A DNA stretch of 23,107 bases from a virus. Within the stretch, counting starts at the first letter, position 1. The number at the start of each line of letters is the position of its first letter. The stretch lies in IMG/VR virus record IMGVR_UViG_3300034374_012237, positions 1 through 23,107 of that record; one strand, 5' to 3'. Below are positions 5,150 to 23,107 of this stretch, one piece after another. The notes under the pieces are model-generated. The model was not told the origin of the DNA, did no database searches, and saw only the letters and a program-made list of their open reading frames with translations. The position numbers and the translations under genes are program-made.

Positions 5150-5161
5150 TATTTATAAATA
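5148..5161 (+). promoter_or_regulatory. T4-late-like promoter box
   Basis: AATATTTATAAATA overlaps the PhoH stop codon. It contains TATAAATA (5154-5161), identical to the T4 late promoter octamer, within the perfect palindrome TATTTATAAATA. The next ATG is six bases beyond the octamer. With T4 spacing, transcription would start at about 5167, one base before the start codon. Confidence 0.5.
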
Positions 5162-6898: not shown

Positions 6899-6923
6899 TT
6901 TTAAAAAATAAATAAATATGTGT

Positions 6924-6950
6924 GGGCTCCAAATTGGAGCCCTCTTTTTT
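6924..6950 (+). terminator. Intrinsic terminator after the 440-residue fibre gene
   Basis: Stem GGGCTCC (6924-6930) and GGAGCCC (6936-6942), loop AAATT, followed by TCTTTTTT. It lies 25 bases after the fibre stop. The open frame of the next gene technically extends back into this hairpin, which argues for the later ATG at 6964 as its start. Confidence 0.9.
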
Positions 6951-6963
6951 AATATTTATAATC
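6951..6963 (+). promoter_or_regulatory. AT-rich box before the neck-gene cluster
   Basis: AATATTTATAATC lies directly between the terminator U-tract and the ATG at 6964. The forward strand has TATAATCA, a partial match to TATAAATA, and the reverse strand has a perfect TATAAATATT. The location immediately after a terminator suggests that a new transcript starts here. The distance to the ATG leaves almost no leader. Confidence 0.4.
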
Positions 6964-8112
6964 ATGGCAAACATTCCTATTTGGCCCGGCTCATCTTCAT
7001 TTTTCCCAGGAGAAACACCTTTTGGGTTTTATGATAATGACCCTGATTTTCAAACAGACGCTGATAAAGTAGCAAAATTTTGTGGTTTGCGTTTAGGTTA
7101 CCCTATTGAAAACGTAGAATTACAAGATGTTAATTTTTATACTGCTTTTGAACAAGCTGTCACAGTATACGGTAATGAACTATATGCTTTTAATGTTAGA
7201 GATAATTATTTATCTTTAGAAGGAGCATCAACTGGGTCCAATTTAAATAAATCCCTTATTACACCTAATTTAGAAGGTGTTATACGCATGTCCCAACAAT
7301 ATGCCTCCGAAGCAGGTACCGGAGGAAATTACAATTGGTATAGCGGTTCAGTTACATTAACAGGAAGTATTCAAGATTATGATTTAGGAGCTTGGGCCAC
7401 TGATAATAATATTTCAGGCGGTTTAGAAATTAAAAAAATATGGTATGAAGATGTACCTGCTGTTTCTGAACTATATAGTCCGTGGGCCGGTATATTACCG
7501 GGTGCTGCTAGCGCTGTAGGTTTAGTAGGTATTGCCGGATATGGTCCTTCAACTAACTTCTTATTAATGCCTTTAAGTTATGATTTACAAAACATTCAGG
7601 CTATTGAAATGTCAAATCAAGTTAGATTATCTAACTACACATTCCAATTAATTAATAATAAATTAAGAATATTCCCTATACCAGGTACAGGAGATGAAGG
7701 AACTAATTTGTGGTTTCAATATTCTATTATAGATGAAAAATATGATGCTTCTATAACACCTACATCTAAAGTAAATAATGTATCAAATGTTCCTTATGGG
7801 AATCCAACATATGAACAAATAAATTCTGTAGGTAGAAGTTGGATTTTTGAATATACATTAGCCTTAGCTAAAGAAATGTTAGGGTATGTTAGAGGTAAAT
7901 ATGGAACTATACCTATTCCTGGAGCTGAAGTAACATTAAACCAAAGTGATTTAATAGCTGCGGCAACTTCTGAAAAAGAAGCTTTAATCACTAGATTAAG
8001 AGATTACTTTGATTCAACTTCTCGTCAAGCATTACTTGAAAGAAGGGCAGCAGAATCAGCAGCTCGCGTTAATGAAATTAATCAGGTTCCAATGACAATT
8101 TTTATAGGATAA
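6964..8112 (+). CDS. 13: Neck protein, gp13-like
   Basis: This is probably the head-completion/neck protein that joins the filled head to the tail. The segment AKFCGLRLGYPIENVELQDVNFY and the following FEQAVTVYGNELYAFN match the N-terminal pattern of T4 gp13 (a LRRLGAPIINVELTPDQIY-like region followed by ALELYGEYHF). The 382-residue length is greater than T4 gp13 (309). A longer frame starts at 6922, but it begins inside the terminator hairpin and would add a hydrophobic artefact, so I use MANIPIW at 6964. The C-terminal third is helical and charged. The stop is one base from the next ATG, and the next two genes are gp14- and gp15-like, reproducing T4 order. Confidence 0.78.
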   Translation: MANIPIWPGSSSFFPGETPFGFYDNDPDFQTDADKVAKFCGLRLGYPIENVELQDVNFYTAFEQAVTVYGNELYAFNVRDNYLSLEGASTGSNLNKSLITPNLEGVIRMSQQYASEAGTGGNYNWYSGSVTLTGSIQDYDLGAWATDNNISGGLEIKKIWYEDVPAVSELYSPWAGILPGAASAVGLVGIAGYGPSTNFLLMPLSYDLQNIQAIEMSNQVRLSNYTFQLINNKLRIFPIPGTGDEGTNLWFQYSIIDEKYDASITPTSKVNNVSNVPYGNPTYEQINSVGRSWIFEYTLALAKEMLGYVRGKYGTIPIPGAEVTLNQSDLIAAATSEKEALITRLRDYFDSTSRQALLERRAAESAARVNEINQVPMTIFIG

Positions 8113-8113
8113 T

Positions 8114-8635
8114 ATGGCATTATTTGGTGAAAGTAGAGATATAAGCATGTTCAGACACATTAACCGTGAGTTAATGCAAAACATTATCTCTGAACAAGTA
8201 GTATTCTATAAATATAACTTAACTAAAACCAATGTTAATATGTATGGTGAGGCAAGTGAAGGAAGATATTTCCAAGATCCTGTTTTACTATATGCTTTAG
8301 TTGAAAGATCCCCCCAATCAAATCCAGTAGATGAATTTGGTGTTCAGTTTGATTATGCTTTAATCTTTAGATTTTTAGTTGATGACTTAACTGATTTAAG
8401 TATATTCCCTGATGTTGGAGATGTGGTTATGTATTATGAAGGATATTGGGAAATAGATAGTATAAACTCTACACAGTTCTTTGTAGGTAAAAACCCAGCT
8501 TATCCTTATAATGACTCAACAGGAACAAACCCATTAGAAACTGACTTAGGTTCTTTTGGTTATAATGTATCATCAATATGTTCAGCGCACTACGTACCAG
8601 CTGATCGCTTGAACATTGTTAAACAACGTTTATAA
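8114..8635 (+). CDS. 14: Neck protein, gp14-like
   Basis: A probable second neck/head-completion protein of 173 residues, shorter than T4 gp14 (256). The N terminus (SMFRHINRELMQNIISEQVVFYK) has the pattern seen in gp14 relatives of marine phages. The core FGVQFDYALIFRFLVDDL, then FPDVGDVVMYYEGYWEIDSI and FFVGKNP, parallels the T4 gp14 series of FGMQ, EGDLIYFP, FEINWV and QLGQN. It starts one base after the gp13 stop and its own stop shares an A with the gp15 ATG, so the three genes are almost certainly translated together. A weak AGGA four bases before the ATG is the only candidate Shine-Dalgarno in this part of the window. Confidence 0.8.
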   Translation: MALFGESRDISMFRHINRELMQNIISEQVVFYKYNLTKTNVNMYGEASEGRYFQDPVLLYALVERSPQSNPVDEFGVQFDYALIFRFLVDDLTDLSIFPDVGDVVMYYEGYWEIDSINSTQFFVGKNPAYPYNDSTGTNPLETDLGSFGYNVSSICSAHYVPADRLNIVKQRL

Positions 8636-9585
8636 TGGCTGTAAAAGGAAGAAAACCAATACCAAAGACCCAAAGAGAAATAAGTAATTCTCTTATAACT
8701 CCTTATGATAAGGAAAATGGAAATCCTAATTTAGCCAATCCTAATTTGGATAATGAAGTTAATAGATCACAACAGATTTCATTTAAAGGAGATACAACAA
8801 AACCATTTTCTGTTAGTATTCAAGACATAGATGAAGCTGTATTCTATTATCTTAGAGAAGTTATTAAACCTTTTGTTATACAAAACGGTGTTAGAATTCC
8901 TGTTCCTGTGATTTATGGTGCCCCTGAGAAATGGAAATCATTTCAAAAAGACGGTTATTATAGAGACTTAAATGGAGAAATTATGGCTCCATTAATCATG
9001 TTTAAACGTACAGGAATTAATAAAAATAGAAGTATAGCTAATAAATTAGATGCTAACTTACCTTATAATTATGGTGTGTTTACTAAAGGTTACAATTCAA
9101 AAAATGCTTATGATAACTTTAATGTTTTAAATAATAGAACACCTAACAAAGTTTATTATTCAGTTGTAGTTCCTGATTATGTAACAGTAAGCTATCAATT
9201 TGCTGTGTTTACATATTATGTAGAACAACAAAATAAAATAGTTGAAGCCATTGAATACGCTTCAGACTCATATTGGGGTGACCCAGAACGCTTTAAATTT
9301 AAAGCTATGATAGATTCTTTTGGTTTCCAAACAGAATTATCAGATAGTAATGAAAGAGTAGTACGTAGTACTTTCGATTTAAGCCTAAATGGCTATATTA
9401 TACCAGACGTTATACAAAAAGACATGAACGCGCAAAAGAAATCATACGAAGCTTCTAAAATTATATTTTCAGTTGAAGCGACAAATAATGAAGGAATATT
9501 CCTTGGAGTAGAACAAGATGGACGTTTAGTCACACCTACTGTTGGGGAAAAAGAAACTCAAAACAGATCTACATCCATCGGGTAA
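8635..9585 (+). CDS. 15: Tail sheath stabiliser/completion protein, gp15-like
   Basis: This is probably the cap at the head-proximal end of the contractile tail, which in T4 is a gp15 hexamer that stabilises the sheath and contacts gp13/gp14. Matches to the T4 pattern run in order: IPVPVIYGAPEKWKSF (T4 has RVPITYASKEHF); SYQFAVFTYYVEQQNKIVEAI (T4 has ELSIFTRYEDDMFQIVEQI); and VVRSTFDLSLNGYIIPDV (T4 has RIEWSLTFEVNGWMYPPV). The length is 316 residues against 272 in T4, with an added Pro/Asn-rich N-terminal 60 residues. It overlaps the previous stop by one base. The gene is followed within about 20 bases by the start of the giant fibre gene. Confidence 0.82.
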   Translation: MAVKGRKPIPKTQREISNSLITPYDKENGNPNLANPNLDNEVNRSQQISFKGDTTKPFSVSIQDIDEAVFYYLREVIKPFVIQNGVRIPVPVIYGAPEKWKSFQKDGYYRDLNGEIMAPLIMFKRTGINKNRSIANKLDANLPYNYGVFTKGYNSKNAYDNFNVLNNRTPNKVYYSVVVPDYVTVSYQFAVFTYYVEQQNKIVEAIEYASDSYWGDPERFKFKAMIDSFGFQTELSDSNERVVRSTFDLSLNGYIIPDVIQKDMNAQKKSYEASKIIFSVEATNNEGIFLGVEQDGRLVTPTVGEKETQNRSTSIG

Positions 9586-9589
9586 GGCT

Positions 9590-9606
9590 AATATTTATTA
9601 TAAATA
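9590..9606 (+). promoter_or_regulatory. T4-late-like promoter box before the giant fibre gene
   Basis: AATATTTATTATAAATA includes a perfect TATAAATA at 9599-9606, two bases before the ATG at 9608. Canonical T4 spacing would place the transcript start near 9612, inside the gene. Either initiation spacing differs in this phage or the box works otherwise. It is nearly identical to the box at 21420, before the second collagen-like gene. Confidence 0.5.
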
Positions 9607-9607
9607 A

Positions 9608-12600
9608 ATGGCTAAAGTTAGATATCTTGATCAGGTACCCGTTGGTGTTTACAATACAGCTGGCTCCGGCGGTACTGGTGCTATTGATATATATTATACT
9701 GGCTCCTTAATAAAAGCTAGTGCTCCTTTTATCAATTTTACCGGCTCAGCTGAAGCTTTCACAGAAGTAATATCTGGGACTGAAGGAGTAACAGTTTATA
9801 TATCAGGTTCAGGAGTTGGATTTCCATTCTCAGGATCAGCAGTAATTACAGGTTCATTAGTAATTTCAGGTTCAGCAGAACCTATTATAATTCAAACATT
9901 ACCATATGAAGCTAGTCCTTCATATGTTGTAACATATGTTCCTGCCTCAGGAGTATTAGAATATTCTGATATGCCATCAGATGGTACTTCAGGTTCAAGC
10001 GGCTCTTCAGGAACAAGCGGTAGCTCAGGTTCATCCGGCACTTCAGGAAGTTCTGGTTCTAGTGGAACAAGTGGTTCTTCAGGAACATCAGGTTCTAGTG
10101 GAACATCTGGCTCAAGTGGTTCTAGTGGTACATCAGGTTCATCAGGCTCATCTGGTTCAAGTGGTACTAGCGGCTCATCAGGTTCATCTGGCACTTCAGG
10201 TAGTTCAGGTTCAAGTGGTTCAAGTGGAACAAGTGGTTCATCTGGCTCTTCAGGTACTTCTGGTTCTTCAGGAACATCAGGTTCATCTGGCACTTCAGGC
10301 AGCTCAGGTTCAAGTGGTTCATCAGGAACAAGTGGCTCTTCAGGTTCATCTGGCACTTCTGGTTCCTCAGGTACATCAGGCTCAAGTGGCACTTCAGGTT
10401 CATCTGGAACCTCAGGTTCTTCAGGTTCATCAGGTACTAGTGGCTCTTCAGGTTCATCAGGTTCATCAGGTTCTAGTGGTTCAAGTGGAACTTCTGGTTC
10501 ATCTGGATCTAGTGGAACCTCAGGAAGCTCAGGCTCATCTGGCTCATCAGGCTCAAGTGGAACTAGTGGTAGTTCAGGCTCATCAGGAACCTCAGGTTCT
10601 TCAGGGTCTAGTGGAACATCAGGAGTTAGTGGTATATCAAGTGGATTAGTTTATTATTATGACGGACCAACAGCATCACAAACAGTTCCTATAACATCTT
10701 TAATTACCGATGATTTAATTTTATTCCCTAATACAGGATCACAAACAACTATTTCAACAACAAGTTTTGATCCTGCGGATGGAGACACTGAAATAGTTCA
10801 ATATGTTACTCCATCAGCATCTTTAGCTACAACAGTAATAGTTCCTGGGTTATGGGTAAATAATTTATTTGCACAAAGAACAGCTGGAACAGGTACTCTT
10901 GTTTATTGGATTGTTATTGATGAAATGCAATCTAATGGAACAACTCTTATTGCTAATATTGCATCAGGAAATGCTGGTTCGGGTACTCCTATTACTAATA
11001 CCCAAAACAATTATATTTATTCTTTATATGTTCCTTCATATGTTTTAGCATCAGTTAACTCAAGAATTAGAGTTAGTGTTTACGCAAACACAACAGGTAA
11101 TAATACTGCGTTTGATATTGAAATGAGAGATAATACTCTCTCAAACATAGTAACAACATTAGCTGCTAATATAGCTGGAACTTCAGGAACAAGCGGTAGC
11201 TCAGGTTCATCTGGCACTTCAGGAAGTTCTGGTTCTAGTGGAACAAGCGGTTCTTCAGGTTCATCTGGTACTTCTGGGTCATCAGGATCTAGTGGTACTA
11301 GTGGCAGTTCAGGTTCTAGCGGAACAAGCGGTTCTTCTGGCTCTTCAGGAACTTCAGGTATAGATGGAACAAGCGGCTCATCAGGATCTAGTGGTACATC
11401 AGGTAGTTCAGGTTCTTCTGGAACTAGTGGCTCATCTGGTACTTCTGGTTCATCAGGTTCAAGCGGAACTTCAGGTTCATCTGGAAGTTCAGGTACTTCT
11501 GGCTCATCAGGTAGTTCAGGTACTTCAGGCTCATCAGGCACTTCAGGCTCATCAGGCACTTCAGGCTCATCTGGAAGTTCAGGTACATCTGGTTCATCAG
11601 GTTCATCAGGAACAAGCGGCTCATCAGGTAGTTCAGGTACTTCTGGCTCATCAGGTAGTTCAGGTACCTCTGGTTCATCAGGTACCTCTGGCTCATCAGG
11701 TAGTTCAGGTACTTCAGGTTCATCAGGTAGCTCTGGTTCTTCAGGTACCTCTGGTTCATCTGGTTCTAGTGGAACAAGCGGTTCATCTGGTACTAGTGGT
11801 AGTTCAGGTACTTCAGGTTCATCCGGTACTTCAGGTAGTTCTGGTTCTAGTGGAACTAGCGGTTCATCAGGCACTTCAGGTAGCTCTGGTTCTTCAGGCA
11901 CTTCAGGCTCATCAGGTTCATCAGGTACAAGTGGCTCAAGTGGCAGCTCAGGTACTTCAGGTATAAGTGGTGTTAATGGAACTTCAGGTTCTAGCGGCAC
12001 TTCAGGTTCTTCAGGAACCTCAGGCTCATCAGGCAGTTCAGGAACTAGTGGTTCTAGTGGTACTTCTGGTTCATCTGGATCAAGTGGCACCTCAGGTTCA
12101 TCTGGAACTTCAGGTAGTTCAGGTTCATCAGGAACAAGTGGTTCAAGTGGTTCAAGTGGTTCTTCAGGAACTAGTGGCTCATCAGGCTCATCAGGTACAA
12201 GTGGCTCATCAGGCAGCTCAGGTACTTCAGGTATAAGTGGTGTAAATGGTACTAGCGGTTCTTCAGGAACCTCAGGTTCAAGTGGTACTTCAGGCAGCTC
12301 AGGTTCATCAGGAACATCAGGTGTTGACGGTACTTCTGGATCAAGTGGCACCTCAGGTTCATCTGGAAGTTCAGGAACTTCAGGTTCATCAGGAACAAGT
12401 GGTTCTTCAGGAACTTCAGGTTCAAGTGGTTCAAGCGGAACAAGTGGCTCAAGTGGTTCTTCTGGGACAAGTGGTTCATCAGGTACTTCAGGTTCATCAG
12501 GTACCTCAGGCTCATCAGGCAGCAGTGGTACATCAGGTATAAGTGGAGTAAACGGAACTAGCGGCTCATCAGGATCAAGTGGAACATCAGGTTCTTCCGG

Positions 12601-15600
12601 TTCATCAGGAACATCTGGTTCTTCTGGAACATCTGGCTCAAGCGGAACTAGTGGTTCATCAGGTTCATCTGGCACTTCAGGTTCATCAGGTTCTAGTGGA
12701 ACTTCAGGTTCATCAGGTAGTTCAGGAACTAGTGGCTCAAGTGGAACAAGTGGTTCCTCAGGAACTAGCGGCTCATCAGGTTCATCAGGTACAAGCGGCT
12801 CAAGTGGCAGCTCAGGTACTTCAGGTATATCAGGTGTAAACGGTACATCTGGCTCAAGCGGAACAAGCGGTTCTTCAGGAACTAGCGGTTCATCAGGTTC
12901 TAGTGGTACTTCAGGAAGCTCTGGTTCTTCAGGAACTAGTGGTTCATCAGGTACTTCAGGCTCTTCAGGTTCATCAGGAACTAGTGGATCTAGTGGGACA
13001 TCTGGTTCTTCAGGAACAAGTGGATCTTCTGGTTCATCAGGAACTAGCGGTAGTTCAGGTTCATCAGGAACTAGTGGTTCATCAGGCTCGTCAGGAACTA
13101 GTGGAATTTCAGGTATAAATGGTACTAGTGGTTCATCAGGAACTAGCGGTAGTTCAGGAACATCAGGTTCATCAGGTTCATCTGGAACAAGCGGTTCAAG
13201 CGGAAGTTCAGGTACATCTGGTTCATCAGGTACTTCAGGAAGTTCAGGTTCAAGTGGTTCATCAGGAACTAGCGGTTCATCAGGTTCATCAGGTACTAGC
13301 GGTTCTAGTGGAACTAGTGGTTCTTCAGGAACATCAGGTAGTTCCGGTTCATCAGGTACTTCAGGTTCATCTGGTTCCTCAGGTTCAAGTGGATCTTCAG
13401 GTTCATCTGGTTCAAGTGGTACATCAGGTAGCTCAGGTACTAGTGGTTCTTCTGGTTCATCAGGCACTTCAGGCTCATCGGGTTCAAGTGGAACTAGTGG
13501 TTCTTCAGGTTCAAGTGGCACTTCAGGTATAAGTGGTATAAATGGTACCTCTGGTTCATCAGGAACTAGTGGCTCATCAGGAACTTCTGGCTCAAGTGGT
13601 TCATCAGGAACTAGCGGTAGTTCAGGTTCATCAGGAACTTCAGGAAGTTCAGGTACATCTGGTTCATCTGGTTCATCTGGTTCATCTGGTTCAAGCGGAA
13701 CAAGCGGTTCTAGCGGTACTTCAGGATCAAGTGGTTCAAGCGGAACTTCAGGTTCATCTGGTTCTTCTGGTACAAGCGGAAGTAGTGGTACAAGTGGCTC
13801 GTCAGGAACAAGTGGAAGCTCAGGCTCATCAGGAAGTTCAGGTTCAAGCGGTTCATCAGGAACTTCAGGCTCGTCAGGAACAAGTGGAAGCTCAGGTACT
13901 TCAGGATCAAGTGGCTCATCAGGTACTAGTGGTTCATCAGGAAGCAGTGGTACTTCAGGTATAAGTGGTGTAAACGGAACTAGTGGTAGTTCTGGTTCAT
14001 CAGGCACAAGCGGTAGTTCAGGTTCAAGTGGTTCAAGTGGAACAAGTGGTTCTTCTGGTTCTTCAGGTACTTCTGGTTCTTCAGGAACATCAGGTTCATC
14101 TGGCACTTCAGGCAGCTCAGGTTCAAGTGGTTCATCAGGAACAAGTGGCTCTTCAGGAAGCAGTGGTACTTCAGGGTCAAGTGGATCAAGCGGCACTTCA
14201 GGTAGTTCAGGTTCAAGTGGAACTAGCGGTTCATCAGGTAGTTCAGGCAGCTCAGGTAGTTCAGGTTCATCAGGAACAAGTGGTTCTTCTGGTTCATCAG
14301 GAACAAGTGGTTCTTCAGGTTCATCAGGAACATCTGGCTCAAGTGGTTCATCAGGTAGCTCAGGCACTTCAGGTATAAGCGGTGTAAACGGAACTTCAGG
14401 TTCAAGTGGTTCAAGTGGAACAAGTGGTTCATCTGGCTCTTCAGGAACAAGTGGCTCTTCAGGTTCATCAGGAACTAGTGGCTCATCAGGTAGTTCTGGC
14501 TCATCTGGTACTTCAGGTTCATCAGGTAGTTCAGGAACTAGTGGTTCATCTGGCACTAGTGGTTCATCAGGTTCTTCAGGAACTTCTGGCTCATCAGGCT
14601 CATCTGGTTCATCTGGTACTTCAGGATCATCAGGTTCATCAGGTACTTCTGGTTCAAGTGGCTCATCAGGAACAAGTGGTTCTTCAGGTTCATCAGGAAC
14701 TAGTGGTAGTTCAGGTTCAAGTGGTTCATCTGGCACATCTGGTAGTTCAGGGAGTTCAGGCACTTCAGGTTCAAGTGGCTCATCAGGAACTTCAGGTATA
14801 TCAGGTGTAAATGGAACTAGCGGATCTTCAGGTTCATCAGGAACAAGTGGCTCAAGTGGTTCTAGTGGAACTAGTGGTTCATCAGGATCTAGTGGAACAA
14901 GCGGTAGTTCAGGTTCATCAGGAACTAGCGGCTCATCAGGTTCATCAGGAACATCAGGTAGTTCAGGTTCATCCGGAACAAGTGGTTCTTCAGGCACGTC
15001 TGGTTCTTCAGGAACTAGCGGTTCATCTGGAACATCTGGCTCATCAGGTTCATCAGGTACATCTGGCTCATCAGGTAGTTCTGGCTCATCTGGTACTTCA
15101 GGTTCATCAGGAACAAGTGGTTCATCAGGATCAAGCGGTACCTCAGGATCAAGTGGTTCATCAGGAACTAGCGGTTCTAGTGGCTCATCAGGTACATCCG
15201 GAAGCTCAGGCTCATCCGGCACATCAGGTATAAGCGGTGTTAATGGAACATCAGGTAGCTCAGGAACATCAGGTTCATCTGGTACTTCAGGTTCAAGCGG
15301 AACTTCAGGTTCTTCAGGTTCATCTGGAACTAGTGGTAGCTCAGGTTCTTCAGGTACATCAGGTTCAAGTGGAACAAGTGGTTCAAGCGGAACAAGTGGT
15401 TCATCTGGAAGTTCTGGAACAAGCGGTTCTTCTGGTTCAAGTGGAACATCAGGAAGTTCAGGTACATCAGGTTCTTCTGGTTCAAGCGGAACTTCAGGTT
15501 CATCTGGCTCATCTGGAACTAGTGGTTCTTCTGGTTCAAGTGGTACTAGTGGTTCATCTGGAACAAGCGGTTCAAGTGGAACTTCAGGTTCAAGTGGTTC

Positions 15601-18600
15601 ATCAGGAACCAGTGGTAGTTCAGGTTCATCAGGAACTAGCGGCTCATCAGGTTCATCAGGAACATCAGGTAGTTCAGGTTCATCCGGAACAAGTGGTTCT
15701 TCAGGTTCATCAGGTACTAGTGGTTCATCTGGTTCATCTGGTTCAAGCGGAACTTCTGGTTCATCAGGTTCATCAGGTACTTCTGGTTCATCAGGAAGCA
15801 GTGGTACTTCAGGTATAAGCGGTGTTAATGGAACAAGTGGTTCAAGCGGTTCTTCAGGTTCATCAGGATCTTCAGGTACAAGCGGTTCATCAGGTTCAAG
15901 TGGCACAAGCGGTTCAAGTGGTAGTTCAGGTACAAGCGGTTCATCAGGTTCATCAGGGTCCTCAGGTACAAGTGGTTCATCCGGCTCATCAGGAACATCA
16001 GGTTCTTCAGGAACATCTGGTAGTTCAGGTTCTTCAGGAACTAGTGGTTCATCTGGCTCATCTGGCTCATCAGGTACTAGTGGCTCATCAGGCTCATCTG
16101 GTACTTCAGGTTCTTCAGGCACTAGTGGTTCAAGTGGTTCATCAGGTACATCAGGTAGTTCTGGCAGCTCAGGAACTTCTGGCTCATCAGGCTCATCTGG
16201 AACTTCTGGCTCATCAGGTAGCAGTGGTACTTCAGGTATAAGCGGTGTAAACGGAACTTCTGGTTCATCAGGTTCATCAGGAACTTCAGGTTCATCAGGG
16301 TCCTCAGGTACAAGTGGTTCATCTGGTTCTTCAGGCACCTCTGGTTCTTCTGGCTCATCTGGAACTTCTGGTTCATCAGGATCTAGTGGTACTAGCGGTT
16401 CAAGTGGTTCTTCAGGAACTAGTGGTTCATCTGGTTCATCTGGTTCAAGTGGTACATCAGGTTCTTCAGGTTCTTCAGGTACAAGTGGATCAAGTGGAAC
16501 CTCAGGCAGCTCAGGTTCATCAGGAACTTCAGGATCATCAGGCAGTTCAGGTTCAAGTGGAACAAGCGGAAGTTCAGGATCTTCAGGTACTTCAGGTTCA
16601 TCTGGCTCATCTGGATCAAGTGGAACTTCAGGTTCATCAGGATCTTCAGGTACAAGTGGCTCATCAGGAACTAGTGGAAGTTCAGGTTCATCAGGTACTT
16701 CTGGTTCTAGTGGTTCTAGCGGCTCAAGCGGAACAAGTGGTTCAAGCGGTAGTTCAGGTACCTCAGGCTCATCTGGTTCTTCAGGTACATCAGGTATAAG
16801 TGGTGTTAATGGAACTAGCGGTTCATCTGGATCAAGTGGAACATCAGGTTCAAGTGGTTCATCAGGAACAAGTGGTTCAAGTGGTTCTTCTGGGACAAGT
16901 GGTTCAAGCGGAACATCAGGTAGCTCAGGTTCTTCAGGTACAAGTGGATCAAGTGGAACCTCAGGCAGCTCAGGTTCATCAGGAACTTCAGGATCATCAG
17001 GCAGTTCAGGTTCAAGTGGAACATCAGGTTCAAGTGGTTCATCAGGAACAAGTGGTTCAAGTGGTTCTTCTGGGACAAGTGGTTCAAGCGGAACATCAGG
17101 TAGCTCAGGTACTTCAGGTTCAAGTGGAAGTTCAGGAACTTCAGGTTCATCAGGTTCATCAGGAACAAGTGGATCATCAGGTACTTCAGGCTCATCAGGC
17201 AGTTCAGGTACTTCAGGAAGTTCTGGTTCTTCAGGTACAAGCGGTTCATCTGGTACTTCAGGTTCAAGTGGAACTAGTGGTTCATCTGGTTCATCAGGAT
17301 CATCTGGTTCTTCAGGAACTTCTGGCTCTTCAGGAACTAGTGGTTCATCAGGAACATCAGGTTCAAGTGGTTCATCAGGTACATCAGGCAGCTCAGGTAG
17401 CTCAGGTACATCAGGCATATCAGGTGTAAATGGAACAAGCGGTTCATCAGGAACTTCAGGTTCTAGTGGTTCATCAGGAACAAGCGGTTCATCAGGAACT
17501 TCAGGTTCATCTGGAACAAGTGGTAGTTCAGGTTCAAGTGGAACATCAGGCAGCTCAGGTTCAAGCGGAACTAGTGGTTCAAGCGGTTCATCAGGCACTT
17601 CAGGTTCATCTGGATCTAGTGGAACAAGTGGTTCAAGTGGTACTTCAGGTTCATCAGGCACTTCAGGTTCATCTGGTTCATCAGGTACTAGTGGTTCAAG
17701 CGGTTCATCAGGAACAAGCGGTTCAAGCGGTACTTCAGGTAGTTCAGGTACTTCAGGATCATCTGGCTCAAGTGGTACTTCAGGTTCATCTGGTTCAAGC
17801 GGAACTAGTGGTTCATCAGGTTCATCAGGTACTTCAGGATCTTCAGGATCTTCAGGTACTTCAGGTATAAGTGGTGTTAATGGTACTTCTGGTTCCTCAG
17901 GAACTAGCGGTTCATCAGGCACTTCAGGTTCAAGTGGTTCATCAGGAACTAGTGGATCAAGTGGTTCTAGCGGGACAAGTGGTTCAAGCGGTTCATCTGG
18001 AACATCAGGTTCTTCTGGTTCCTCAGGAACTAGTGGCTCAAGCGGTACTAGTGGAAGCTCAGGCTCATCAGGAACATCTGGTAGTTCTGGTAGTTCAGGT
18101 ACTAGTGGTAGTTCTGGTACTTCAGGTTCAAGCGGAACTAGTGGTTCATCAGGTTCATCAGGAACTTCTGGCTCATCTGGTTCATCAGGAATATCAGGAA
18201 GTTCAGGAACATCTGGCTCAAGCGGCTCATCAGGAACTAGTGGTTCTTCAGGTTCAAGTGGAACTAGTGGTTCTAGTGGAACTTCAGGTTCTTCAGGAAC
18301 AAGTGGTTCTAGTGGCACTTCAGGTTCAAGTGGCTCATCAGGAACTTCTGGATCAAGCGGTTCATCAGGTACATCAGGCTCAAGTGGCTCAAGTGGTTCA
18401 AGTGGTACTTCAGGAAGCTCAGGTTCAAGCGGAACAAGCGGCTCATCAGGAACTAGTGGTTCATCTGGCTCAAGTGGAACATCAGGTTCATCAGGAACAA
18501 GCGGCTCATCAGGAACAAGTGGAAGCTCTGGAACATCAGGTTCTAGTGGCTCATCAGGTACAAGTGGCTCATCAGGTAGCTCAGGTACCTCAGGTATATC

Positions 18601-21421
18601 AGGTGTAAATGGTACTTCAGGTTCTTCAGGAACTAGCGGAAGTTCAGGAACATCTGGCTCATCAGGCTCATCTGGTACTTCAGGTTCAAGTGGTTCATCA
18701 GGAACTAGTGGAAGCTCAGGTACTTCAGGTTCTTCAGGTACATCAGGCTCTTCTGGAACATCAGGTTCTAGTGGAAGTAGTGGTACTAGTGGTTCTTCAG
18801 GTTCATCAGGTACTTCAGGATCATCAGGTACATCAGGCTCATCTGGAACTTCAGGTAGTAGTGGTTCATCTGGTACTTCAGGTTCAAGCGGTTCTTCAGG
18901 AACTAGTGGAAGTTCAGGTACTTCAGGTTCATCAGGAACTTCTGGTTCATCAGGTTCATCAGGAACTTCTGGTTCATCAGGTTCATCAGGAACTAGTGGA
19001 TCAAGTGGTTCATCTGGTACCTCTGGTTCAAGTGGAACAAGTGGTTCATCAGGTTCATCAGGTACAAGCGGCTCATCAGGTAGCAGTGGTACTTCAGGTA
19101 TAAGTGGAGTTAACGGAACTTCAGGTTCTAGTGGTACTTCAGGCTCATCAGGAACATCAGGTTCATCTGGATCAAGTGGCACTTCAGGTTCATCAGGTTC
19201 ATCTGGAACCTCAGGTTCTAGTGGTACTTCTGGCTCATCAGGAACCTCAGGTTCAAGTGGAAGTTCAGGAACATCTGGTTCATCTGGATCAAGTGGCACT
19301 TCAGGTAGCTCAGGTTCAAGTGGTTCTTCAGGTTCATCTGGAACTAGTGGCTCAAGTGGAACTAGTGGTTCATCAGGAACAAGTGGATCTTCAGGTTCAA
19401 GTGGGACAAGTGGCTCATCCGGTTCTTCAGGTACTTCTGGAAGTTCAGGAACATCTGGTTCAAGTGGTTCATCAGGTACTTCAGGTTCATCAGGTAGCTC
19501 AGGTTCATCTGGAACTTCAGGCTCATCAGGTACTTCAGGTTCTTCAGGAACTAGTGGTTCATCTGGTTCAAGTGGTACCTCAGGTAGCTCAGGTTCATCA
19601 GGAACCTCAGGTTCATCTGGAACAAGTGGTTCAAGTGGAACTTCAGGCTCATCAGGCTCATCAGGTACAAGCGGCTCAAGTGGTAGCTCAGGTACTTCAG
19701 GTATATCAGGTGTAAATGGAACAAGCGGTTCATCAGGAACTAGTGGAAGTTCAGGTACATCTGGTTCATCAGGTTCTTCAGGTACAAGTGGTTCATCAGG
19801 TTCATCAGGAACTAGTGGCTCATCTGGTACTTCAGGTTCATCAGGAACTAGCGGTAGTTCAGGAACATCAGGTTCTTCAGGTTCAAGTGGTACTTCAGGT
19901 AGCTCAGGCTCAAGCGGAACTAGTGGTTCCTCTGGTTCAAGTGGTACCTCAGGTTCTTCTGGATCTAGTGGAACTAGTGGTTCAAGTGGTTCATCAGGAA
20001 CAAGCGGTTCTTCAGGTTCTAGCGGCACATCAGGTTCAAGTGGTTCCTCTGGAACAAGCGGTTCATCAGGTTCAAGCGGAACCTCCGGCTCATCTGGAAC
20101 TTCAGGTTCATCAGGTACTTCTGGTTCAAGTGGTACTTCAGGCTCATCAGGCTCATCGGGTACTTCAGGTAGTTCAGGATCAAGTGGAACCAGTGGCTCT
20201 TCAGGAACTAGTGGTAGCTCAGGCTCTTCAGGAACTTCAGGTAGCTCAGGTTCATCTGGAACTTCAGGCTCATCTGGAACTTCAGGATCAAGTGGAACTT
20301 CAGGTTCATCTGGTTCATCAGGTACAAGTGGTTCAAGTGGTTCATCAGGAACGTCAGGTTCATCTGGTTCTTCTGGAACTTCTGGATCAAGCGGAACATC
20401 AGGCTCATCCGGTACAAGCGGCTCAAGTGGTAGCTCAGGTACTTCAGGTATAAGTGGAGTTAATGGAACATCAGGTTCTTCAGGAACTAGTGGTTCAAGT
20501 GGTACTTCAGGAAGCTCAGGTTCAAGCGGAACAAGCGGCTCATCAGGAACTAGTGGTTCATCTGGCTCAAGTGGAACAAGTGGTACAACTACTATAACTA
20601 ATAACATAGATGATCGTGTATTAACAGCTACAGGTACAGCTACTATTAATGGTGAATCTAATCTAACATTTGATGGTAGTACATTAGGAGTAATAGGCAC
20701 AGTCGGAATCGGTACAGATAGTCCACTGTATCAACTCCATGTATCAAGTAGTACTGCTGCTTTAGGAGTATATGAAAGAGCAGGAGGAGCTGCCTTATAT
20801 TTAGAAGGTCAGTTAACTCGAGGTGTATTAGGTACTGTAAGTACACATCCATTACTAATTGCATACAATAGTGTTGAAGTAGCAAGATTTACAGGAACAT
20901 CATTTGATGTAACTGGATCTTTAAATGTAGGAACTGGAACTGATATAAACTTAATTGGAGGAGGAAATTTAGAAACCAACGGAGGAAATGTAAATACAAC
21001 TGGAGGAAGTATTAACATCGGAGGAGGAGCTGTAAACGGTACAACCCCAGGATCTTCAGTCAATGTTGATGTTATTAATGCCAATATTAAAAACTTTGAT
21101 ATTACTCATCCATCTAAAGGCGAACCTCATAGATTAAGATACTCAGTACTTGAAGGTCCAGAAATTGGTGTATATGTTAGAGGTAGATTAACTAATAACA
21201 ATATAATTGAATTACCATATTATTGGGTTGACTTAGTACATGAAGATTCTATAACAGTAACTTTAACACCAATTGGTAAACATCAAAACCTATATGTAAT
21301 ATCTGCAAACCCAGAAAAAGTGGTAGTAGGAATTGAAGAAGGAACAATTGATTGTTACTATGTAATATATGGAGAAAGAAAAGATGTAGACAAATTAACA
21401 ATTGAATACATTAAAGAATAA
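9608..21421 (+). CDS. Giant fibre protein with 1118 Gly-Ser/Thr-Ser collagen-like triplets
   Basis: A single uninterrupted 3937-residue gene, more than half the window. The layout is: unique N-terminal domain, residues 1-125, with fibre-type ITGSL/VISGS strands; triplet tract I, 126-344 (73 triplets); a globular beta-rich domain, about 345-523 (LVYYYDGPTASQTVPI and onward); triplet tract II, 524-3658 (1045 triplets); and a C-terminal region, 3659-3937. That region contains VGIGTDSPLYQLHV, a Gly-rich stretch, and a final domain with FDITHPSKGEPHRLRYSVLEGPEIG-type sequence (about 3785-3810), a motif seen at the ends of phage fibres. In the tracts Gly is every third residue, position Y is Ser and position X is Ser or Thr; proline is absent. 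The GIS-G(V/I)N markers and other variants keep register. The role is probably a long side or tail fibre, or a virion filament that reaches the host surface. No S74 chaperone motif was seen. Folding as triple helix or polyglycine-II bundle is inference. Confidence 0.92.
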   Translation: MAKVRYLDQVPVGVYNTAGSGGTGAIDIYYTGSLIKASAPFINFTGSAEAFTEVISGTEGVTVYISGSGVGFPFSGSAVITGSLVISGSAEPIIIQTLPYEASPSYVVTYVPASGVLEYSDMPSDGTSGSSGSSGTSGSSGSSGTSGSSGSSGTSGSSGTSGSSGTSGSSGSSGTSGSSGSSGSSGTSGSSGSSGTSGSSGSSGSSGTSGSSGSSGTSGSSGTSGSSGTSGSSGSSGSSGTSGSSGSSGTSGSSGTSGSSGTSGSSGTSGSSGSSGTSGSSGSSGSSGSSGSSGTSGSSGSSGTSGSSGSSGSSGSSGTSGSSGSSGTSGSSGSSGTSGVSGISSGLVYYYDGPTASQTVPITSLITDDLILFPNTGSQTTISTTSFDPADGDTEIVQYVTPSASLATTVIVPGLWVNNLFAQRTAGTGTLVYWIVIDEMQSNGTTLIANIASGNAGSGTPITNTQNNYIYSLYVPSYVLASVNSRIRVSVYANTTGNNTAFDIEMRDNTLSNIVTTLAANIAGTSGTSGSSGSSGTSGSSGSSGTSGSSGSSGTSGSSGSSGTSGSSGSSGTSGSSGSSGTSGIDGTSGSSGSSGTSGSSGSSGTSGSSGTSGSSGSSGTSGSSGSSGTSGSSGSSGTSGSSGTSGSSGTSGSSGSSGTSGSSGSSGTSGSSGSSGTSGSSGSSGTSGSSGTSGSSGSSGTSGSSGSSGSSGTSGSSGSSGTSGSSGTSGSSGTSGSSGTSGSSGSSGTSGSSGTSGSSGSSGTSGSSGSSGTSGSSGSSGTSGISGVNGTSGSSGTSGSSGTSGSSGSSGTSGSSGTSGSSGSSGTSGSSGTSGSSGSSGTSGSSGSSGSSGTSGSSGSSGTSGSSGSSGTSGISGVNGTSGSSGTSGSSGTSGSSGSSGTSGVDGTSGSSGTSGSSGSSGTSGSSGTSGSSGTSGSSGSSGTSGSSGSSGTSGSSGTSGSSGTSGSSGSSGTSGISGVNGTSGSSGSSGTSGSSGSSGTSGSSGTSGSSGTSGSSGSSGTSGSSGSSGTSGSSGSSGTSGSSGTSGSSGTSGSSGSSGTSGSSGSSGTSGISGVNGTSGSSGTSGSSGTSGSSGSSGTSGSSGSSGTSGSSGTSGSSGSSGTSGSSGTSGSSGTSGSSGSSGTSGSSGSSGTSGSSGSSGTSGISGINGTSGSSGTSGSSGTSGSSGSSGTSGSSGSSGTSGSSGTSGSSGSSGSSGTSGSSGSSGTSGSSGTSGSSGTSGSSGSSGTSGSSGSSGSSGSSGSSGSSGTSGSSGTSGSSGSSGTSGSSGSSGTSGSSGSSGTSGISGINGTSGSSGTSGSSGTSGSSGSSGTSGSSGSSGTSGSSGTSGSSGSSGSSGSSGTSGSSGTSGSSGSSGTSGSSGSSGTSGSSGTSGSSGTSGSSGSSGSSGSSGSSGTSGSSGTSGSSGTSGSSGSSGTSGSSGSSGTSGISGVNGTSGSSGSSGTSGSSGSSGSSGTSGSSGSSGTSGSSGTSGSSGTSGSSGSSGSSGTSGSSGSSGTSGSSGSSGTSGSSGSSGTSGSSGSSGSSGSSGSSGTSGSSGSSGTSGSSGSSGTSGSSGSSGSSGTSGISGVNGTSGSSGSSGTSGSSGSSGTSGSSGSSGTSGSSGSSGSSGTSGSSGSSGTSGSSGTSGSSGSSGTSGSSGSSGSSGTSGSSGSSGTSGSSGSSGTSGSSGSSGTSGSSGSSGSSGTSGSSGSSGTSGSSGSSGTSGISGVNGTSGSSGSSGTSGSSGSSGTSGSSGSSGTSGSSGSSGTSGSSGSSGTSGSSGSSGTSGSSGTSGSSGTSGSSGTSGSSGSSGTSGSSGSSGSSGTSGSSGTSGSSGSSGTSGSSGSSGTSGSSGSSGTSGSSGSSGTSGISGVNGTSGSSGTSGSSGTSGSSGTSGSSGSSGTSGSSGSSGTSGSSGTSGSSGTSGSSGSSGTSGSSGSSGTSGSSGTSGSSGSSGTSGSSGSSGTSGSSGSSGTSGSSGTSGSSGTSGSSGSSGTSGSSGSSGTSGSSGSSGTSGSSGSSGTSGSSGSSGTSGSSGSSGSSGTSGSSGSSGTSGSSGSSGTSGISGVNGTSGSSGSSGSSGSSGTSGSSGSSGTSGSSGSSGTSGSSGSSGSSGTSGSSGSSGTSGSSGTSGSSGSSGTSGSSGSSGSSGTSGSSGSSGTSGSSGTSGSSGSSGTSGSSGSSGTSGSSGSSGTSGSSGSSGTSGISGVNGTSGSSGSSGTSGSSGSSGTSGSSGSSGTSGSSGSSGTSGSSGSSGTSGSSGSSGTSGSSGSSGSSGTSGSSGSSGTSGSSGTSGSSGSSGTSGSSGSSGSSGTSGSSGSSGTSGSSGSSGSSGTSGSSGSSGTSGSSGTSGSSGSSGTSGSSGSSGSSGTSGSSGSSGTSGSSGSSGTSGISGVNGTSGSSGSSGTSGSSGSSGTSGSSGSSGTSGSSGTSGSSGSSGTSGSSGTSGSSGSSGTSGSSGSSGSSGTSGSSGSSGTSGSSGSSGTSGSSGTSGSSGTSGSSGSSGTSGSSGSSGTSGSSGTSGSSGSSGTSGSSGSSGTSGSSGTSGSSGTSGSSGSSGSSGSSGTSGSSGTSGSSGTSGSSGSSGTSGSSGSSGTSGISGVNGTSGSSGTSGSSGSSGTSGSSGTSGSSGTSGSSGSSGTSGSSGSSGTSGSSGSSGTSGSSGSSGTSGSSGTSGSSGTSGSSGSSGTSGSSGSSGTSGSSGTSGSSGTSGSSGSSGTSGSSGSSGTSGSSGSSGTSGSSGSSGTSGISGVNGTSGSSGTSGSSGTSGSSGSSGTSGSSGSSGTSGSSGSSGTSGSSGSSGTSGSSGTSGSSGSSGTSGSSGSSGTSGSSGTSGSSGTSGSSGSSGTSGSSGSSGISGSSGTSGSSGSSGTSGSSGSSGTSGSSGTSGSSGTSGSSGTSGSSGSSGTSGSSGSSGTSGSSGSSGSSGTSGSSGSSGTSGSSGTSGSSGSSGTSGSSGTSGSSGTSGSSGTSGSSGSSGTSGSSGSSGTSGISGVNGTSGSSGTSGSSGTSGSSGSSGTSGSSGSSGTSGSSGTSGSSGTSGSSGTSGSSGSSGTSGSSGSSGTSGSSGTSGSSGTSGSSGSSGTSGSSGSSGTSGSSGTSGSSGTSGSSGSSGTSGSSGSSGTSGSSGSSGTSGSSGTSGSSGSSGTSGSSGSSGTSGISGVNGTSGSSGTSGSSGTSGSSGSSGTSGSSGSSGTSGSSGTSGSSGTSGSSGSSGTSGSSGSSGTSGSSGSSGSSGSSGTSGSSGTSGSSGTSGSSGSSGTSGSSGSSGTSGSSGTSGSSGSSGTSGSSGSSGSSGTSGSSGTSGSSGTSGSSGSSGTSGSSGSSGTSGSSGTSGSSGTSGSSGSSGTSGSSGSSGTSGISGVNGTSGSSGTSGSSGTSGSSGSSGTSGSSGSSGTSGSSGTSGSSGTSGSSGTSGSSGSSGTSGSSGSSGTSGSSGSSGTSGSSGSSGTSGSSGSSGTSGSSGSSGTSGSSGSSGTSGSSGSSGTSGSSGTSGSSGTSGSSGTSGSSGSSGTSGSSGSSGTSGSSGTSGSSGSSGTSGSSGSSGTSGSSGTSGSSGTSGSSGSSGTSGSSGSSGTSGSSGSSGTSGSSGTSGSSGTSGSSGSSGTSGISGVNGTSGSSGTSGSSGTSGSSGSSGTSGSSGTSGSSGSSGTSGTTTITNNIDDRVLTATGTATINGESNLTFDGSTLGVIGTVGIGTDSPLYQLHVSSSTAALGVYERAGGAALYLEGQLTRGVLGTVSTHPLLIAYNSVEVARFTGTSFDVTGSLNVGTGTDINLIGGGNLETNGGNVNTTGGSINIGGGAVNGTTPGSSVNVDVINANIKNFDITHPSKGEPHRLRYSVLEGPEIGVYVRGRLTNNNIIELPYYWVDLVHEDSITVTLTPIGKHQNLYVISANPEKVVVGIEEGTIDCYYVIYGERKDVDKLTIEYIKE
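9983..10639 (+). repeat. Gly-X-Y triplet tract I (73 triplets)
   Basis: 657 bases coding 219 residues, nearly all GSS or GTS, ending in GVS-GIS before the globular domain. Its first 79 bases (10005-10083) are almost identical to the start of tract II (11181-11259), with two mismatches. Positions 10199-10344 are almost identical to 14012-14157. Confidence 0.95.
10199..10344 (+). repeat. 146-base module copied from tract I to tract II
   Basis: This stretch matches 14012-14157 (offset 3813 bases) with only two differences (at 10240 and 10246), although synonymous codons elsewhere in the tracts are freely mixed. It shows copying at the DNA level between the two tracts across the globular domain. 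Confidence 0.85.
14903..14994 (+). repeat. 92-base exact direct repeat within tract II
   Basis: Positions 14903-14994 recur exactly at 15614-15705 (offset 711 bases), including a rare TCC-GGA codon pair. The offset is a multiple of nine, so triplet register is kept. Confidence 0.85.
16466..17110 (+). repeat. Overlapping 99-base exact duplications within tract II
   Basis: Two exact copy pairs are visible. Positions 16466-16564 recur at 16925-17023 (offset 459), and 16832-16930 recur at 17012-17110 (offset 180). Both offsets are multiples of nine. The pairs partly overlap, so at least two separate copying events are recorded here. Confidence 0.85.
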
Positions 21422-21433
21422 TATTTATTATAA
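21420..21433 (+). promoter_or_regulatory. AT-rich promoter-like box before the second collagen-like gene
   Basis: AATATTTATTATAA begins inside the giant gene's stop codon and abuts the ATG at 21434. Together with the start codon it reads TATAAATG, a one-base variant of the T4 late octamer. The first 14 bases are identical to the box at 9590. Confidence 0.45.
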
Positions 21434-23107
21434 ATGGCTAAAAACGTCCAAATAATACCAGCATCAGGAACTGTAGATTTTCAAGATGGAACTCAATCAG
21501 TTATCCTGACAATGAAAAAATCAGGAGCTGTAGCTACAGGTATTGATATTTCTGTAAATGGTAGTGCTCCTGTGAGTATTCAAGGTACTCAAGGCACTAC
21601 AGGTACTCAAGGTACTACTGGTCCTCAAGGTACAACAGGTACACAAGGAACAACAGGTACTCAAGGTATTCAAGGACGTCAAGGTGTAACAGGTCCACAA
21701 GGTACTACAGGTACCCAAGGTACTACAGGTACTCAAGGAGCAACCGGAACTCAAGGCACTACTGGTACTCAAGGCACTACTGGTACTCAAGGTACTACAG
21801 GCGCGCAAGGTATACAAGGTATAACAGGTAACACAGGTCCTACTGGTCCAACAGGCCCACAAGGTACAACAGGTGCTACAGGTTCACAAGGTACTACAGG
21901 CGCGCAAGGTATACAAGGTATAACAGGTAACACAGGTCCTACTGGTCCAACAGGCCCACAAGGTACAACAGGTACACAAGGTACTTTAGGTCCTGTAGGT
22001 CCACAAGGAGCAATAGGTGCTCAAGGTATTCAAGGTGTTATAGGTCCTGTAGGAGCAACAGGTCCACAAGGAACAACCGGGGGAACAGGTCCAACAGGTC
22101 CTCAAGGCACTACTGGTACTCAAGGAACTATAGGTGCTCAAGGTATCCAAGGACGTCAAGGTATAACAGGTAACACTGGAGGAACAGGTCCAACAGGTCC
22201 TCAAGGTACAACCGGGGGAACAGGTCCAACAGGTCCTCAAGGCACTACTGGTACTCAAGGAACTATAGGTGCTCAAGGTATACAAGGTAGACAAGGTATA
22301 ACAGGTAATACAGGCCCAATAGGACCAGATGGTCCTACAGGTCCTACAGGTTCACAAGGTACTACAGGCGCACAAGGTATACAAGGTATAACAGGTAACA
22401 CAGGCGGAACAGGCCCAACTGGTCCAACAGGTCCAACTGGTCCAACTGGTCCACAAGGTACAACAGGTGCTCAAGGTATACAAGGTAGACAAGGTATAAC
22501 AGGTAACACAGGCGGAACAGGTCCAACAGGTCCTCAAGGTACTTTAGGTCCTATAGGTCCTCAAGGAGCTATTGGTGCTCAAGGTATTCAAGGTATTATA
22601 GGTCCTGTAGGAGCTACTGGACCACAAGGAACAACAGGTGGAACAGGTCCAACAGGTCCTCAAGGCACTACTGGTACTCAAGGAACTACAGGTGCTCAAG
22701 GTATACAAGGACGTCAAGGTATAACAGGTAACACTGGAGGAACAGGTCCAACAGGTCCTCAAGGTACGACCGGGGGAACAGGTCCAACAGGTCCAACAGG
22801 TCCTCAAGGTACAACAGGTACCCAAGGAGCTATTGGTGCTCAAGGTATACAAGGTCGTCAAGGAATAACAGGTAATATAGGCCCAATAGGACCAGACGGT
22901 CCTACAGGCCCTACAGGCCCAACAGGCCCACAAGGAACAACTGGTGGAACAGGTGCTCAAGGTATACAAGGTAGACAAGGTATAACAGGTAACACTGGAG
23001 GAACAGGCCCAACAGGTCCTCAAGGAACAACTGGAGGTACTGGAGGAACAGGTCCAACAGGTGCTCAAGGTATACAAGGTATAACAGGTAACACTGGAGG
23101 AACAGGT
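21434..23107 (+). CDS. Collagen-like fibre protein (3' end outside the window)
   Basis: An open frame of 558 codons with no stop before the window edge. It starts [12 protein letters not shown], just 12 bases after the giant gene's stop. Residues 1-50 form a short unique N-terminal region with beta-strand character ([18 protein letters not shown]). From residue 51 onward every third residue is Gly. Unlike the giant gene, the triplets are rich in Gln, Thr, Pro and Ile: [25 protein letters not shown] recurring phrase GAQGIQG(R/I)(Q/T)G appears about every 100-140 bases. Such GPQ/GTT-rich tracts are classical bacterial and phage collagen-like sequences that form trimeric rods in fibres. It is probably a second tail-fibre or capsid-fibre subunit; its C-terminal domain is not visible. 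Confidence 0.9.
21584..23107 (+). repeat. Collagen-like Gly-X-Y tract with internal tandem copies
   Basis: 508 codons of unbroken triplets up to the window end. Positions 21788-21874 recur exactly at 21887-21973, giving a 99-base (11-triplet) tandem unit. Positions 22073-22146 recur at 22208-22281, a 135-base (15-triplet) offset. Later blocks (about 22640-22800) repeat the same phrases with scattered synonymous changes. Confidence 0.9.

Follow-up and report, generated by a model that had tools for sequence, protein, structure and literature searches.

A single open reading frame fills about half of the window, as the whole 23,107-nucleotide stretch analyzed here is called (IMG/VR record IMGVR_UViG_3300034374_012237), and most of its product has glycine at every third residue. 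The locus raises the question of what such a protein could be for a phage, and whether so long a repetitive tract is genuine. The features used below were as follows.

1007-2677, plus strand: T4-like major capsid protein gp23 (PF07068)
6922-8112, plus strand: neck/head-completion protein, T4 gp13-like (phrog_211, E 2.5e-10; T4 gp13, E 1.4e-5)
8635-9585, plus strand: conserved gene directly before the giant gene (top profile match T4 gp15, E 0.22, non-significant)
9599-9605, plus strand: heptamer TATAAAT directly 5' of the giant-ORF start codon (sequence motif)
9608-21421, plus strand: giant ORF of a putative collagen-like fiber protein (3,937 aa and 327 kDa per chain, occupying 51% of the window)
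9608-9982, plus strand: N-terminal domain, probable virion anchor (66-90% identity to 12 other aligned viral sequences)
9983-10639, plus strand: first Gly-X-Y tract, 73 triplets, in the same ORF as the main tract
10640-11176, plus strand: 179-aa inter-tract domain (low-confidence beta-sandwich model, mean pLDDT 57)
11177-20590, plus strand: main tract of 1,046 Gly-X-Y triplets in an unbroken run without proline, with 19 GIS-GVN/GIN pairs as punctuation
20591-21085, plus strand: spacer from shaft to tip, region of VGIGTDSPLYQLHVSSS (similar counterpart in L003)
21086-21418, plus strand: C-terminal knob domain, HPxxx..RLRYSVLEGPExGVYxRGR (beta model, mostly confident)
21434-23107, plus strand: second putative collagen-like fiber gene, with GPT/GPQ/GTT triplets (truncated at the end of the window)

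The giant protein, with a computed pI of 4.3, was thus ordered as N-terminal domain (residues 1-125), 73 triplets, 179-aa domain, 1,046 triplets, spacer, and knob.

Genomic setting of the giant gene

Upstream of the giant gene were gp23, a DDAH-like gene, a phosphatidylserine decarboxylase gene, PhoH, and then the gp13-like gene, which was followed by two genes, the giant gene, and the second fiber gene. The presence of gp23 and the gp13-like gene placed the giant gene in the structural region of a T4-like phage, beside neck genes. The gene at 8635-9585 matched no PHROG at E < 0.1; a homologue (56% identical) again preceded a giant Gly-X-Y protein on a 170-kb contig, which also carried two collagen-like genes and, judged by eye, glycosyltransferase-like and oxygenase-like ORFs. 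The second fiber gene was complete in L002, a record assigned to the same phage on the grounds that the 273-aa C-terminal part of the giant protein was identical; the product of the second fiber gene had 911 aa there and ended in Peptidase_S74 (PF13884).

The heptamer TATAAAT occurred 11 times in the window on both strands, against 3.98 expected, and the copy at 9599-9605 is presumably T4-late-promoter-like. An antisense ORF of 3,206 aa (11080-20700) was rejected as a gene: it stays open because a stop there needs a sense codon starting with TA or CA, of which the tract has none.

The nearest isolated relative by capsid was Flavobacterium phage immuto (57-61% identical), and therefore a flavobacterium is the likely host.

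As described in the available text of PMC7029224, marine T4-like phages have their host recognition cluster between VrlC and gp14, a neck gene; the glycosyltransferases of the cluster are related to the host surface, and triple collagen repeats occur in unidentified structural proteins taken as putative receptor-binding proteins. By analogy, the neighborhood of the giant gene resembles this cluster: the SAR11 and cyanobacterial phages share with it collagen repeats and a position beside a neck gene with glycosyltransferases. They differ in their hosts, which are SAR11 and cyanobacteria rather than probably a flavobacterium, and no comparable tract length is mentioned in the text available (PMC7029224).

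Terminal domains and relatives of the giant protein

The N-terminal and middle domains had no match among 50,697 phage records, a collection from which close kin of the window were possibly excluded. A profile of the N-terminal domain gave a single weak match in bacterial genomes (26%, Robiginitalea sediminis), which was taken as chance; its neighborhood looked, by eye, like a bacterial outer-membrane one. For the AlphaFold model of the inter-tract domain, the best structural rows (Z 7.9) were unrelated beta-sandwiches, and no fold was assigned. This domain was missing from relative L006.

The knob was modeled with AlphaFold2 (46 sequences). Residues 81-150 of the C-terminal piece had pLDDT block means of 94-98, the rest of 51-160 had 78-89, and those before 51 had 52-59. 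Foldseek found no match of the knob to the PDB at E 1e-3. When PDB rows were realigned, the first eight were all phage or pyocin fiber or tailspike tips, with Z values up to 8.0, which by the tool's warning can reflect a common arrangement. The tip of the cyanophage Pam1 tailspike stood first (Z 8.0, rmsd 2.1, 67 aligned), followed by the tips of the R2-pyocin fiber and AP22 gp53 (Z 6.4, 2.5, 72); H-type lectins had Z values near 5. This resemblance of the modeled knob to fiber and tailspike tips is suggestive only. Among predicted viral proteins, the knob model matched ones named 'Collagen triple helix repeat'. By sequence, the best PDB match of the C-terminal domain had E 0.83, and no Pfam family fell below E 0.03 in any of 7 members.

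Used as a single query, the C-terminal 273 aa found 10 loci; a knob profile found at least 594, of which the best 80 were used. The resulting 89 loci, which were not de-duplicated, contained 79 ORFs with the knob motif. Among the 65 of these complete at the 5' end, 60 had no run of six or more triplets and 5 had a run of at least 100, while 8 of the 14 open at the 5' end likewise lacked any run of at least six. Judged by these sequences, the knob occurs as an independent unit, mostly on proteins without a giant shaft. An isolated example is immuto gp52, annotated 'putative tail fiber-like', which has a homologous C-terminal knob (51% identity over 43% of the query) in the same genomic region; it differs in its length of 587 aa and in lacking any run of at least six Gly-X-Y triplets.

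The ends and the shaft were found in different combinations. In L004 the knob was 84% identical to that of the window, yet the shaft consisted of GIQ/GTQ triplets. The N-terminal domains of L350 and L351 were 58% and 82% identical to that of the window, and both proteins ended in Peptidase_S74 (PF13884, E 4.5e-17 and 7.6e-16) instead of the knob. Peptidase_S74 is a chaperone domain typical of trimeric phage fibers. Fibers with this intramolecular chaperone include L350, L351, and the product of the next gene, as complete in L002; the giant protein of the window differs from them in its knob end, and 20588-21418 gave no Pfam match, Peptidase_S74 included, up to E 1.

Several relatives had tracts of similar or greater length. 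L006 had 1,053 triplets and L350 had 1,406. L351 and L352 had 1,249 each, with identical count and marks in two contig records, and L354 had at least 1,219 with the same marks. L353 had 997+48. L309 had a run of at least 1,082 and, by eye, an S74-type ending like L351; its partial record L355 had no run above 200 triplets in the part covered. Shorter totals were found in L004 (782 perfect triplets of GIQ/GTQ/GSQ/GTI), L232 (742 over several runs), and L026 (713 in short runs). L005 was L006 minus one base, with 7 mismatches in the first 10.6 kb, and its tract was split into 584+469. The capsid protein was 78% identical to that of the window in the L006 record, 77% in those of L026, L352, and L354, 75% in that of L351 (residues 92-556), 71% in that of L232, 61% in that of L004, and 57% in that of L353; the L350 record had no capsid match to the window.

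Uninterrupted tracts of 1,037-1,406 triplets were thus present in at least four distinct phages (window, L006, L351, and L350), with L353 as a fifth at 997+48. In a set of 203 loci assembled before L350-L354 were added, the longest uninterrupted runs were those of L006 (1,053) and of the window's sister contig (1,037). The preliminary description had set the tract apart as far longer than known collagen-like phage proteins; these relatives do not support such singularity: the window protein is one member of a giant-fiber family, neither unique nor the longest.

The proline-free style, also presented there as an exception, proved to be widespread. At least 120 stretches in viral contigs fitted a 22-triplet GGN-WSN-WSN pattern (Gly followed mostly by Ser/Thr), and a scan for GIS-GVN-GTS punctuation yielded 46 stretches, of which several shared a contig. 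When 4.8 kb of tract DNA was compared with the annotated phage collection, 9 of 50,697 records matched. The best match was a 735-kb uncultured phage (LR756501), present in two records, with an unannotated 3,488-aa frame containing 835 mostly GTS/GSS triplets; its tract differs in being broken into runs of 307, 245, 223, and shorter. A term search did not find the word collagen in the main text of PMC7162821, the inferred source paper of LR756501.

Nature of the Gly-X-Y shaft

The main tract consisted of GSS (625), GTS (379), GIS (20), GVN (17), GIN (2), GID (1), GVD (1), and GTT (1). It had been described as about 1,045 proline-free Gly-(Ser/Thr)-Ser triplets without a register break. The run itself and its unbroken register stood, with Gly at all 1,046 triplets; the earlier end at 20581 omits the final triplet, GTT. 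The composition did not hold throughout: GSS and GTS made up 1,004 of the 1,046 triplets, and the other 42 were mainly GIS-GVN punctuation. The tract had no proline, no cysteine, no aromatic, and 2 charged residues, and Ser and Thr made up 2,030 of its 3,138 residues. The first two bases of the Gly codons were invariant, in a run that is itself defined by Gly, whereas the third base was mixed (GGT 589, GGA 292, GGC 154, GGG 11; 1.46 bits). The informative signs of more than chance are this variation at the third base and the repeated occurrence, in relatives, of tracts that reach or exceed about 1,000 triplets.

The collagen repeat PF01391 matched the first 608 aa of the main tract (E 2e-88, to be read with caution because of low complexity). 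Glycine at every third residue, which PF01391 calls for, was kept through 1,046 + 73 triplets without a break; the proline-rich X and Y positions usual for the family, though not needed for a Pfam match, were absent from the main tract. Membership of the protein among collagen-like phage fiber proteins is well supported at the level of sequence.

Two regularities were found within the shaft. Adjacent GTS-GTS triplets occurred once in the window, against a shuffle mean of 135 (never below 109 in 2,000 shuffles), and three times in L006, against 160 (never below 135). The deficit was only two- to threefold in L025 and L010, and L149 had 78 against a mean of 71, which ruled out this avoidance as a universal rule. 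The second regularity concerned the punctuation marks, whose spacing in triplets was 30-34, 46-50, 62-69, and 81-83, with one of 56, in the window; 33-36, 52, 68-71, and 88-89 in L006; and 18, 35, 52, 69-71, 88, and 97 in L351. The intervals lay near multiples of 17-18 triplets in 4 of 5 distinct phages tested. Against a null of +/-9-triplet jitter, a model that leaves shared ancestry and duplication aside, the observed periodicity was reached in 0 of 1,000 sets in the window, the sister contig, L006, L350, and L351. It was reached in 368 of 1,000 in L353, in which quantization as a universal feature fails. Collagen rises 0.286 nm per residue, at which 17.5 triplets would span 15 nm and both tracts together 960 nm.

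The explanation that we favor, and consider probable though far from secure, is a giant host-recognition fiber, taken as the main one, of a T4-like, immutovirus-related, probably flavobacterial phage, built from an anchor, a Gly-X-Y shaft, and a beta knob. The conserved N-terminal 125 residues would attach the chain to the virion; the probable site is the neck or tail, as suggested only by the position of the gene after a gp13-like gene. Three chains would combine into a proline-free shaft, about 1,100 triplets long, and at its end their beta knobs would make up a trimeric tip that binds the host surface. Gly would be retained at every third position because each one has to pack into the center of a helical bundle, which is most likely a collagen triple helix, and Ser and Thr would make the surface entirely hydrophilic and possibly glycosylated. 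Nested, in-frame duplication of roughly 17-triplet units may have lengthened the shaft, which would provide a long reach. What the sequences and the model show is the ORF, its glycine register, the recurrence in relatives, the exchanged domains, the gene neighborhood, and the modeled knob; a trimer, a triple helix, the place on the virion, receptor binding, growth by duplication, and a length of about 0.96 micrometer are what we infer. GSS and GTS are among the less stabilizing collagen triplets and proline is lacking, which could leave a canonical triple helix weak in the absence of modification.

Three other readings of the shaft were weighed. The first is a flexible, disordered tether, in which a Ser/Gly-rich single chain holds the tip on a long leash and the Gly period is a relic of collagen-like ancestry. 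The Gly-Ser-rich, proline-free, nearly uncharged tract would suit it, and engineered flexible linkers are of similar composition. For a leash, a strict period would be unnecessary; in the tract, however, 1,046 Gly were kept in register with mixed third bases, and the homologous shaft of L004, which is not linker-like, was equally perfect in register. Register kept while the chemistry was swapped points to a constraint imposed by packing, of the kind found in collagen or in a polyproline-II-type helix. Its retention despite either a swapped chemistry or an S74 tip argues, at the sequence level, for a helical shaft over a loose linker, and we regard the tether as unlikely.

The second reading, which we consider improbable, is a heavily modified filament, a brush for shielding or adhesion more than for reach, in which phage enzymes decorate Ser and Thr of this protein and Pro of its GPT/GPQ neighbor. 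Genes downstream of the second fiber gene in L002 included one for a 2OG-Fe(II) oxygenase (PF13640), one of the radical-SAM/SPASM type, and one weakly matching a glycosyltransferase (phrog_13126, E 0.0011). PF13640 was found in 5 of 9 records searched, and in four of them (L002, L006, L004, and L353) it lay about 4-8 kb 3' of a knob-type giant gene; in L232 a glycosyltransferase-like ORF, named by eye, was near the giant gene. The match to PF13640 in the L232 record was, on the other side, some 80 kb away, and the domain was absent from the records of immuto, L026, L350, and L351, the last three of which covered about 20-36 kb 3' of the giant gene. Such enzymes are also common in T4-like host recognition clusters, according to the available text of PMC7029224.

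A folded polyglycine-II bundle, the third reading, would have the chain double back, with GIS-GVN as turns or stacking nodes, into a compact rod. Adhesin tips of this kind exist in phages, as a helix bundle at the fiber tip of the S16 gp38 type. The small X and Y residues and the marks near multiples of 17-18 triplets fit a bundle. The segments of 30-90 triplets between marks, however, greatly exceed the helices of known bundles in length, the marks stay in Gly-X-Y register and are not obvious turns, and the giant tract of L353 lacks the quantized spacing. This reading appears more doubtful still.

Length of the tract and significance

The longest exact repeat in the 9,414-base tract was 99 nt, no 111-mer occurred twice, and the DNA is not a simple repeat because the Gly, Ser, and Thr codons are mixed. 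In 30 synonymous shuffles the longest repeat had a mean of 39.5 and a maximum of 47; the observed 99 nt therefore suggests recent copying on top of old, diversified repeats. No strong codon-level periodicity was found in the window (best lag 0.634, median identity 0.619).

The sister contig 3300025671_000670, the one contig of the same phage seen to span the main tract, covered the gene in full, and in the tracts it was free of substitutions and differed by in-frame gaps only. It lacked 63 bp at 10277-10339, which gives a first tract of 66 triplets, as well as 63 bp at 17022-17084 and 108 bp at 17093-17200, and it had 90 additional bases after 18715; its main tract had 1,037 triplets. L013 and L015 likewise lacked the 63 bp at 10277-10339, so three other contigs of the same phage, not necessarily independent samples, have 66 triplets and not 73. 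Given these indels, the triplet count of the window is good to about 20 triplets.

An artefact of assembly or sequencing that inflated a short repeat is very improbable and was rejected: the window's 63-bp piece is an exact copy of 14090 and 12 of 13 contigs with N-terminal identity of at least 76% end inside the tract, yet exact repeats are short, the sister contig spans the main tract with three in-frame indels there, and distinct relatives have tracts as long, in one case with an identical count in two records, although the exact count is still uncertain. The preliminary description had named an assembly artefact or frame breaks as what would overturn it, and the same evidence speaks against both. 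Its central proposal, a giant proline-free collagen-like phage protein, was upheld, on a literature scale of 322 residues in the available text of PMC3368898.

That scale comes from the collagen-like tail-fiber proteins EPclA-D of E. coli prophages, whose longest collagen domain has 322 residues. Recombinant EPclA, produced in E. coli, where prolines are not hydroxylated, assembled into a triple helix with a Tm of 42 C, and 111 residues were measured at about 30 nm (available text of PMC3368898). Like the giant protein, EPclA-D have a Gly-X-Y domain flanked by phage-fiber domains; they differ in having Pro in nearly half of the X positions and a preference for charged residues (PMC3368898), against 3,138 tract residues with no Pro and almost no charge here. 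EPclA is a precedent, by analogy, for a stable triple helix without prolyl hydroxylation. Collagen-like phage fibers are therefore already known, and what is new here is the extreme length, the absence of proline, and the quantized punctuation. Among open-access titles and abstract openings, with most subscription journals outside that scope, no report of a proline-free collagen-like phage protein of such size was found.

Tracts of this kind often terminate contigs, and such genes are easily missing from metagenome catalogues. A further proposal is offered tentatively: this could be a phage family with a thin fiber of about a micrometer or longer, several times the virion in size, in which a proline-free, near-uncharged triple helix of 1,045-1,406 triplets, in a single stretch or almost so, with GIS-GVN nodes every 17-18 triplets or so (about 15 nm) would serve as a modular reach device of evolvable length. 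We know of no measured phage fiber of this kind. Should the shaft prove to be an extended helix, such phages would have the longest virus fibers inferred to our knowledge, and they would show that a collagen-type helix can be made from almost only Gly, Ser, and Thr, which would bear on how collagen is stabilized and would offer a simple encodable material.

Genes beside the capsid and fibre genes

Three genes of the window and one of a relative gave the following profile matches:
window 2786–3700, DDAH-like gene (PF19420, E = 5.3e-7)
window 3700–4449, phosphatidylserine decarboxylase gene (PF02666, E = 8.6e-25)
window 5168–5569, small gene (phrog_1084, function unknown; strong match, E = 5.7e-19)
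L004 16712–18193, tryptophan halogenase gene (PF04820, E = 2e-111)

The DDAH-like and phosphatidylserine decarboxylase genes were phage-borne and were flanked by the capsid and PhoH genes; in the annotation of Flavobacterium phage immuto, the capsid-to-PhoH interval contained neither gene. The small gene had a second, weaker PHROG match to phrog_3304 (L-shaped tail fibre assembly, E = 6.3e-6), and its product is possibly a fibre chaperone. In L004, a relative with a GIQ/GTQ shaft, the halogenase gene was located downstream of the giant fibre gene.

Heptamers and leaders at gene starts

The heptamer TATAAAT occurred 11 times on both strands of the window, against 3.98 expected, and three of the six plus-strand copies lay near a gene start:
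window 5154–5160, plus strand
window 9599–9605, plus strand
window 21429–21435, plus strand

We take these heptamers at gene starts to resemble T4 late promoters. The gene leaders appeared A-rich and had no obvious Shine-Dalgarno sequence, as is also the case for Bacteroidota leaders.

Giant Gly-X-Y frames and their truncation

Two further long frames were recorded:
window 11080–20700, minus strand, antisense open frame of 3,206 aa over the tract
L201 (LR756501, 735-kb huge phage record) 15525–23858, minus strand, frame of 3,488 aa that carries no annotation and contains 835 triplets, most of them GTS or GSS

The antisense frame was rejected as a gene, being a by-product of the tract's codon set. 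Pro-rich collagen-like frames were found close to the 3,488-aa frame of LR756501. The viral loci L149 and L010 each had a pair of large Gly-X-Y proteins from adjoining genes, and the GTS-isolation rule was absent from L149.

Among the 13 contigs with N-terminal identity of at least 76%, 12 (loci L013 and L015–L025) ended within the tract; therefore, these genes are often truncated in assemblies. The tract was spanned in the contigs of the relatives L351 and L352.
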